Origin: Rhizoctonia solani
Taxonomy: Eukaryota > Basidiomycota > Agaricomycetes > Cantharellales > Ceratobasidiaceae
DNA length: 64,000 nt
Direction of reading: 5' to 3'
NCBI RefSeq assembly: GCF_016906535.1
Contig: NC_057373.1
Span: 1,922,001-1,986,000 of the forward strand
Shown: piece after piece, positions 29,488 through 31,305 of the stretch
Layout: each line of letters begins with the position of its first letter
Numbering within the stretch: the first letter of the stretch is position 1
Made by a program: the position numbers and the translations under genes
Notes under the pieces: model-generated
The model's database searches: none
Seen by the model: only the letters and a program-made list of their open reading frames with translations
Told to the model about the DNA's origin: nothing

Positions 29488-29810
29488 ATGAAACGGGGAC
29501 TACCACTTCGCGGTCCAACCCTGCGACACTTCCTCCTCAAGGCAGAAGTGTTCTCAGTCTATCGGCAGGTGATACGGGCCTGTCGCAGTGAGGAATTGCG
29601 CTATACAGTTGCGTGGTAATCTAGCTGAAATAATATTTGCCACACCTAGAGATACCCAATGCGGACGCACGACGCGAGACACTTGAGTGGTTTAAGCACG
29701 ACTTTCGACGCAGTGCTAATGTTACTGACCTGGTAGAACCACATGCTGTACTAGAGATTATGGCGTCTGACATTGAGCGTTTAGGATGCGATTCAAGGGC
29801 AATTGGCTAG
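29488..29810 (+). CDS. LYR-motif protein, LYRM2-like (86 aa, two exons)
   Basis: Exon 1 (29488-29587) reads MKRGLPLRGPTLRHFLLKAE then VFSVYRQVIRACR. A 62-nt intron (GTGAGG...CCTAG) joins exon 2 (29650-29810), KIPNADARRETLEWFKHDF then RRSANVTDLVEPHAVLEIMA, ending DSRAIG. The HFLLKAEVFSVYRQVIRA block is the Complex1_LYR signature, here with VYR in place of LYR. The length and the E-W-x-x-x-x-F-R-R-x-x-x-V-T-D segment fit the LYRM2 group. LYR proteins are small mitochondrial adaptors that bind acyl-carrier protein and serve respiratory-complex or Fe-S assembly. Both exons are too short to stand out as ORFs, but the splice phase and total length (261 nt) agree exactly. Confidence 0.85.
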
Positions 29811-30167
29811 CATCAAACGAGAACTTAAAACTACGTCTTCTATGTTTTCATTGCCCATCGCTTCTCATTGATGGGCCAATACGAACGGAGTGGATCCATG
29901 AAACACGCCATACTTGTTAATACTGTATGCGCTAACGGTAAGGCCCGGGCCCTATTTCACCAGGCCTAAACTACTCATATTCGTTGCCCCTGGCATCGCT
30001 GTTTTGTAGATGTATGCATCAACCATTTAATAGAGGCGTGTCCCAGAATCCTGCTTCTTTCGTCCAATAAAAATCTAACCATAATTCCAAATACCACCCG
30101 TCACTGGGGCCACCTAATAGGACCAGTGTTGACGCTATACCTTCATTCAACACATTATTTACCGATC
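29811..30167. other. Short convergent spacer between the LYR and LOV genes
   Basis: 357 bp. I searched the minus strand for exons extending the LOV protein: one 30-odd-codon open stretch exists but does not resemble a PAS domain. Confidence 0.4.
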
Positions 30168-31305
30168 TCACGAAAGAGCTATTAACACACACCTTCCTTT
30201 GCGTACATTTTCCATCAACTGCCGTGGTGCCTCAACTAGGTCTGCTTGAAATCCGACATGGTATCGTATTTCGTCGCCGTCCCATGCAATTGGTACGATC
30301 GTCACAAGGTTAAGGAATGGCTCGCCGCCCTAGAAGGATATGTATCGCGTGCCTGGGGCTGCCCTGCCTAGAAGCGTGCTTACTTTCTTATAATTGATCA
30401 ATGTCACTTGGCCTTCACCGCATAGATCAATCACACAAAAATATTAGAAGATTTAGACAGGTGTACTTACATTCCCTGTGGTTTTCTGTTGCATTTTTGA
30501 AATGCATTACAGCCTTTCCGTTATAAACGCTACGATATCAGACATATAAAGCATTATTCTCAGTTTCATACCTCATGATCAGTATGTTTCCTTATGCTTC
30601 CACGTTCAACAAGACCTGTTATAGAGTGAGATTGATTTTCATGTCGATATTTCGTGAAGTACCGTCAGGAGATTGAAGGAAACGGCAATTTTTGTTCAGG
30701 ATGGCCTCCGGAGGGTATTGTGTTAATTGACAAAAAGTGGGACTGGAGGTATATCTATATATGACTTGATTTACTTTTAGCCAATAATAAGTACATACCT
30801 GCAATATACAATCTCATGATCTGGGGTATAAGGGTCAACAACCACAAATGAACAGGAGTGGTCTTGGTAGTTAAATCAGAACTGTAACTATCTATAAGTG
30901 GCTTGAAAACTCACCAACAGGACCGAGATTCACTACGGGATTTGGTCGTGTGACTGGTCACATAAATTGTTTCACTACATAATATCCGCGTTAAAGCCAG
31001 GTTATGAGCTTACCTACTCGAGAAATAACGCTAAGCATGTCGAATCCACTGGTCGAATATAATAGTGAGGTCCCGCTGTAGAAACTCCGAGTCGGTGACC
31101 GAATCATCGCGCTTAGCTCACTCAGGTTTGGAGGATGATATGCAACCGAGTCCGTTGAAAAATTGGAGCTAGACGATCCGCTAGATGATGTGTGATAATT
31201 CTCGCTTCCAAGACTTGGACGTGATAGTTTCTGGTCCTCAGCCATAGACTGGCCATGGTAATCCTCTTGAGTATGTTTGCGGTCGGGTTGGGTATTGTTA
31301 GTCAT
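30168..31305 (-). CDS. Short LOV-domain blue-light photoreceptor (white-collar/VIVID-type LOV only)
   Basis: Seven exons assemble into about 250 residues. About 80 Ser-rich residues lead into LLYSTSGFDMLSVISRV. The LOV core then reads TRPNPVVNLGPVD, CSFVVVD, IVYCSPTFCQLTQYPPEAIL, the flavin-adduct loop NKNCRFLQSPDG (Cys near residue 151), HEAVMHFKN, ECQVTLINYKKGGEPFLNLV and PIAWDGDEIRYHVGFQADLV, ending ENVRKGRCVLIALS at 30168. The flavin-binding Cys and neighbouring residues are intact (NCRFLQ), so photochemistry is plausible. The segment closely resembles white-collar-1 LOV domains, yet no second PAS domain, zinc finger or Q-rich region is present, and the next gene begins 357 bp away. A start upstream at 31380 is possible. 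Confidence 0.85.

Follow-up and report, generated by a model that had tools for sequence, protein, structure and literature searches.

A LOV-only gene of Rhizoctonia and Ceratobasidium, probably derived from a basidiomycete WC-1

Introduction

In Neurospora, VIVID (VVD) is induced by light, pairs with the light-oxygen-voltage (LOV) domain of the white collar protein WC-1 and breaks active WC-1 complexes, as described in two reports (PMC10056346, PMC4433212). VVD of Neurospora crassa and ENVOY (ENV1) of Trichoderma are the systems against which we compare a LOV-only gene of the basidiomycete Rhizoctonia solani, found in a 64,000-nucleotide stretch of DNA (the window; C4:1922001-1986000 of a 16-contig, 40.7 Mb genome). 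The original prediction for this locus was a single LOV domain with an intact flavin-adduct loop in a protein of about 250 amino acids, either a VVD-like protein evolved separately or a truncated duplicate of WC-1. To our knowledge it is unclear by what means basidiomycetes, which have no VVD, become adapted to constant light.

Results

The LOV-only gene is read on the minus strand from 31305 to 30101 and the spliced model has nine exons encoding 255 amino acids (Table 1). Its eight introns are 47-60 nt long and all have GT-AG borders (8/8). All 255 amino acids of the nine-exon product recur unchanged in the public protein P0001 (Rhizoctonia solani), and 11/11 aligned relatives share the C-terminal R-Y-[ST]-x-x-x-G-P; the nine-exon model is therefore better than a 250 amino acid read-through. 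The single LOV domain of the original prediction stood, but its protein end did not, as the last intron had been overlooked and reading through it gives the earlier product ending in CVLIALS at 30168, 67 bp short.

Pfam placed PAS_9 at residues 117-228 (2.1e-19), and apart from an overlapping PAS fold nothing else in the whole protein passed the cut-off, so that the scan showed no further PAS or DNA-binding domain. No later PAS follows the LOV domain, as the protein ends 15 residues past the last predicted helix (232-240, low confidence) and 290 bp from a convergent gene. Comparison with VVD structures using phmmer gave 4.3e-37, a score by which chance likeness to VVD is excluded. The two proteins align in a gap-free register over 140 residues (offset 43) at 39-41% identity, and the N-cap and LOV fold are present with a predicted fold that is VVD-like. 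The adduct loop NKNCRFLQSPDG is there with its adduct cysteine, as originally predicted; XNCRFLQ is intact and the leading glycine is replaced. The adduct cysteine and the counterparts of VVD Asn151, Asn161 and Gln182 are invariant in 11/11 aligned relatives. With P0001 and with the Rhizoctonia WC-1 (P0082) alike, NCBIfam gave bacterial LOV models whose scores fell well short of the cut-offs. Judged from the sequence, this is almost certainly a real LOV-only gene of the photoactive type.

The protein search scored 384 candidates and the best 81 of 384 were listed; the LOV-only family is P0001-P0016 among the matches listed. R. solani contributes P0001-P0006 and P0013-P0015, and Ceratobasidium spp. 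394, 428, 395, AG-I and 370 contribute P0008, P0009, P0011, P0012 and P0016; P0007 and P0010 also belong to the family. P0010 is probably RNA-derived, because its 1007 bp source sequence is too short for this gene with its introns. The family alignment has 11 of these proteins and leaves out P0011 and P0013-P0016, in which introns are retained or exons are cut or garbled. Five of the 16 public gene models (P0011, P0013, P0014, P0015, P0016) look wrong, with retained introns or skipped or garbled exons. P0013, an AG-1 IA record, is identical to our spliced protein over the first 159 residues and ends at 172 amino acids, an end that corresponds to read-through of intron 4 and so to an annotation error. 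Together with the P0001 match, this identity points to R. solani, probably AG-1 IA, as the source of the window. LOV identity within the family was 86-90% (P0001 against P0006, P0008, P0010 and P0012) and tail identity 26-57% (P0001 against P0006, P0007, P0008 and P0010), which fits selection on the LOV domain. The WC-1 LOV domain was more conserved still, at 94% in two pairs. WC-1 records exist under the same strain names for 370 (P0090), 394 (P0091), AG-I (P0089, 572 amino acids) and 395 (P0017, partial). Conservation indicates that the LOV-only gene has persisted from the Rhizoctonia/Ceratobasidium ancestor or an earlier one. The family proteins are already in databases, named 'blue light receptor', 'White collar 1 protein', 'PAS domain-containing protein', 'hypothetical protein' or 'unnamed protein product', but we came across no account that treats them as a family of LOV-only proteins; among the full-text literature matches listed, with subscription journals mostly uncovered, no title concerned basidiomycete LOV-only proteins or Rhizoctonia photoreceptors.

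Diagnostic columns were sought by comparing the family rows with up to 79 other LOV rows of the alignment, and in five of them the family stands apart (Table 1). One replacement, at residue 148, sits three residues before the adduct Cys151. In a wider set, the glycine of GXNCRFLQ was present in 258/260 other motif-bearing proteins and was N, R, H or K in 14/14 loop-showing family members (all 16 minus P0014 and P0015, neither of which shows an adduct loop). Having lost two glycines and a proline at places that are near-invariant elsewhere, the family probably has a photocycle different from that of WC-1.

Like VVD and ENV1, the Rhizoctonia protein is LOV-only with an N-cap, an adduct cysteine and counterparts of Cys71 and Gln182, and it has a VVD-type flavin loop. 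Unlike them, the family lacks the loop glycine, has Phe and Ile/Val at positions 135 and 165 as in WC-1 where VVD and ENV1 have Met, and sits with basidiomycete WC-1 in trees. A WC-1 was found in the same genome at C4:1732073-1734963, which we spliced into five exons encoding 894 amino acids; it is identical to P0082 over the LOV region searched and lies 217 kb from the LOV-only gene on the same contig. In P0082, Pfam marked residues 343-446 as the LOV and residues 517-631 as a clear later PAS; a third PAS was read by eye and no GATA finger came up in the scan. The same absence is stated for basidiomycetes in a published report (PMC4831468). The LOV-only protein shares with this WC-1 61% LOV identity over 155 residues, and with it and other basidiomycete WC-1 proteins the same N-cap and key flavin residues, whereas it has no later PAS, 255 rather than 894 amino acids and no intron at a WC-1 position.

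The LOV tree was built from 95 rows hand-chosen from 285 proteins plus VVD, with group labels assigned here for WC1_unk, part of WC1_Asco, WC1_Basidio, VVD_Asco and CLO_Hydn, and also for P0007 and P0010. Ascomycete WC-1 and VVD split from all others at 100/99 and the LOV-only family fell among Agaricomycotina-type WC-1 at 98/96. A quick tree without the Hydnum-type proteins kept the family in this place (96). Four approximately unbiased (AU) tests were run, three of them on VVD or ascomycetes, and their p-values are uncorrected. The family as sister to VVD gave p 0.0376 and both short-LOV groups held with VVD gave p 0.028, so that sisterhood to VVD is rejected, though weakly. Descent from the VVD lineage of ascomycetes was not recovered, since the free trees exclude it and the AU test gave p 0.0376, a weak result given p 0.191 on the ascomycete side; because of this we do not file the protein as a VVD. 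The separate evolution that had been proposed is thus favoured by the trees and the two VVD tests, but a place on the ascomycete side was not rejected. Overall, an origin from a basidiomycete WC-1 rather than from VVD is probable.

Short LOV proteins were also found in Cantharellus anzutake (P0202) and Hydnum rufescens (P0203), genera which we take to be in the same fungal order as Rhizoctonia, along with P0058, P0063, P0064 and P0065. The LOV-only build first proposed for one basidiomycete gene therefore extends through Rhizoctonia and Ceratobasidium, with short LOVs in Cantharellus and Hydnum. PAS_9 alone was the main domain in P0202 and P0203. These proteins resemble the family in LOV-only size and N-cap but differ in retaining the loop glycine (GRNCRFLQ), in Val at the Cys71 counterpart (6/6) and in their C-terminal end, G[PS]GDExWA[ED]T in 5/6. 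They joined the family at 94/67 in the 95-row tree, with a long-branch warning, and the joining lost its drawn support with a further LOV gene, on contig C6, in the tree. The short LOVs and the family may go back to one origin or to two.

This third LOV gene (C6:1132021-1133149, 336 amino acids, two introns) reads GRNPRFMQ where the motif is GXNCRFLQ and so lacks the adduct cysteine, and it has Met at the signal glutamine and a long flavin-loop insert; PAS_9 is its sole Pfam family over cut-off. It could not be placed in the LOV tree, its end branch being 1.87. Its GPI|D intron (phase 1) has the position and phase of the second intron of the LOV-only gene and its F|RWHVG intron (phase 2) those of a WC-1 intron; sharing one intron with each suggests one intron-richer ancestor for the three genes. 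In genome PAS scans, run exon by exon, the LOV genes were only WC-1, the LOV-only gene and the Cys-less C6 gene, a lower bound; the family scan overlooked the LOV-only gene itself. Two PAS matches on contig C15, below the PAS_9 and above the PAS_3 cut-off, were set aside as they had no adduct loop by eye, and P0105 was ruled out as a LOV-only fusion, being a badly predicted WC-1. Phytochrome and cryptochrome/photolyase families also matched in genome scans.

Downstream, the LOV-only gene faces a convergent LYR-motif gene. The opposing LYR gene of the original prediction is indeed close by, but 290 bp rather than 357 bp separate the two gene ends. A promoter light-response motif for the LOV-only gene was dropped as a candidate, GATC upstream being not above the window mean.

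Table 1. Features of the LOV-only gene and its neighbour, in window positions
Feature	Position	Strand	Basis or comparison
LOV-only gene	30101..31305	-	spliced model; 100% identical public protein P0001
Exons 1-5	31305-31014, 30953-30915, 30862-30799, 30742-30663, 30615-30572	-	spliced model
Exons 6-9	30513-30471, 30412-30384, 30329-30193, 30140-30101	-	spliced model
Exon 1: predicted disordered N-terminal tail and N-cap start	31014..31305	-	block-mean predicted local distance difference test (pLDDT) 38-59, residues 1-90
Last intron, 52 nt, overlooked earlier	30141..30192	-	spliced model; C-terminus conserved in relatives
Exon 9: protein end RYSVNTGPIRWPQ and stop	30101..30140	-	spliced model, P0001, aligned relatives
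Cys114 codon, counterpart of VVD Cys71	30852..30854	-	gap-free VVD register; Cys in 11/11 relatives
Cys151 codon, flavin-adduct cysteine (VVD Cys108)	30685..30687	-	sequence; VVD comparison
Gln225 codon, signal glutamine (VVD Gln182)	30246..30248	-	kept in 11/11 relatives
L94I in the family	residue 94		Leu in 77/78 others
Glu127 codon (P127E)	30813..30815	-	Pro in 79/79 other LOVs
Gln140 codon (G140Q/R)	30718..30720	-	Gly of TGY in 77/79 other LOVs
Asn148 codon (G148N/H/R/K), site of Gly in GXNCRFLQ	30694..30696	-	Gly in 79/79 other LOVs
L/M235 in the family, C-terminal helix	residue 235		Ile in 57/61 others
Convergent LYR-motif gene (Complex1_LYR)	29488..29810	+	PF05347 5.9e-10, hand-joined piece; 5' end and splice approximate

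Discussion

The explanation that we favour, with some reserve, is a working LOV-only blue-light receptor gene that derives from WC-1 and acts on WC-1. A basidiomycete WC-1 gene would have been reduced to its N-cap and LOV domain through loss of the part with the later PAS. Blue light would then form an adduct between Cys151 and the flavin, Gln225 would pass the signal to the N-cap, and the N-cap would open a pairing surface through which the protein could pair with itself or with the LOV domain of WC-1. Such pairing would withdraw WC-1 from active complexes and so bring about photoadaptation. The protein has the parts for such an action and the genome has a WC-1, and a VVD-like working is plausible; we would give even chances to the protein acting by binding WC-1.

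Several results weigh against this explanation. On origin, neither the family held with all ascomycete rows (p 0.191) nor a late origin with Ceratobasidiaceae WC-1 (p 0.387) was rejected by the AU tests, and the p 0.0376 for VVD sisterhood fails if corrected for four tests. None of the LOV-only introns (0/8) is at a WC-1 intron position, and 7/8 match neither WC-1 nor the C6 paralog. On function, N-cap conservation was not above that of the core (22/31 vs 71/118, Fisher p 0.30) and the altered glycines could have ruined the photochemistry. For a WC-2 partner there is no more than a weak candidate, at about C3:1808468-1810821, where a PAS_4 piece scores 23.2 bits against a cut-off of 23.1 and half of a GATA finger (the first half, under its cut-off) lies in a neighbouring frame before an apparent intron; the genome-wide GATA scan did not pick it up. 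GATC motifs upstream of the LOV-only gene were not enriched (2 in 1 kb vs a window mean of 4.2), a count that decides nothing on whether the white collar complex strongly induces the gene in light.

A rather unlikely alternative, though the strongest, is a photoactive LOV-only protein without action on WC-1, one that homodimerises or binds different partners, as a flavin or redox sensor might. Four N-cap and LOV residues near-invariant elsewhere are changed in the family (L94I, P127E, G140Q/R, G148N/H/R/K) and the N-tail stretch YHPPNLxxLxAM.RSPTRG was unmatched in the alignment with the genome's own WC-1 beyond chance-like bits, but the N-cap and key residues agree with WC-1 and VVD and a WC-1 is present in the genome. 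We consider it unlikely that the glycine losses stop adduct formation and leave a light-blind LOV serving as a constitutive dark-state or redox partner. The loop glycine is indeed gone from every loop-showing member and kept nearly everywhere else, and the same genome carries a LOV gene without adduct cysteine; however, a blind protein would not be expected to retain the adduct cysteine and the Asn151, Asn161 and Gln182 counterparts, which are invariant.

Slightly less likely again is a true ortholog of VVD, whether by vertical inheritance or by transfer from an ascomycete. Its build and fold are nearest VVD among solved structures and placement with the ascomycetes as a whole was not rejected, but the free trees group the family with basidiomycete WC-1, sisterhood to VVD was rejected at the two uncorrected p-values given above and the genome's own WC-1 is nearer than VVD in identity. 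The truncated WC-1 duplicate of the original prediction holds as an origin, given the LOV identity and shared contig, but not as a dead copy, because several lineages conserve the protein and its photochemical core is intact. A decaying duplicate without function is thus very improbable: the protein is short with no later PAS and P0013, the public model from AG-1 IA, stops early, but the spliced frame is open, several lineages have the same end and the P0013 end is an annotation error.

A WC-1-derived receptor also allows a bolder and doubtful proposal, that Cantharellales evolved their own VIVID from a basidiomycete WC-1, independently of ascomycete VVD, rebuilt the adduct-loop entrance by replacing two glycines and a proline to set a distinct photocycle, and set it beside the Cys-less LOV of the same genome, the two tuning WC-1 as a pair of which one responds to light and the other is light-blind. 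The conserved LOV-only WC-1 paralog is a concrete candidate for basidiomycete photoadaptation and offers, for work on photocycles, a natural LOV domain whose adduct loop is unusual. If the proposed action on WC-1 is true, it would represent convergent evolution of a photoadaptation module.
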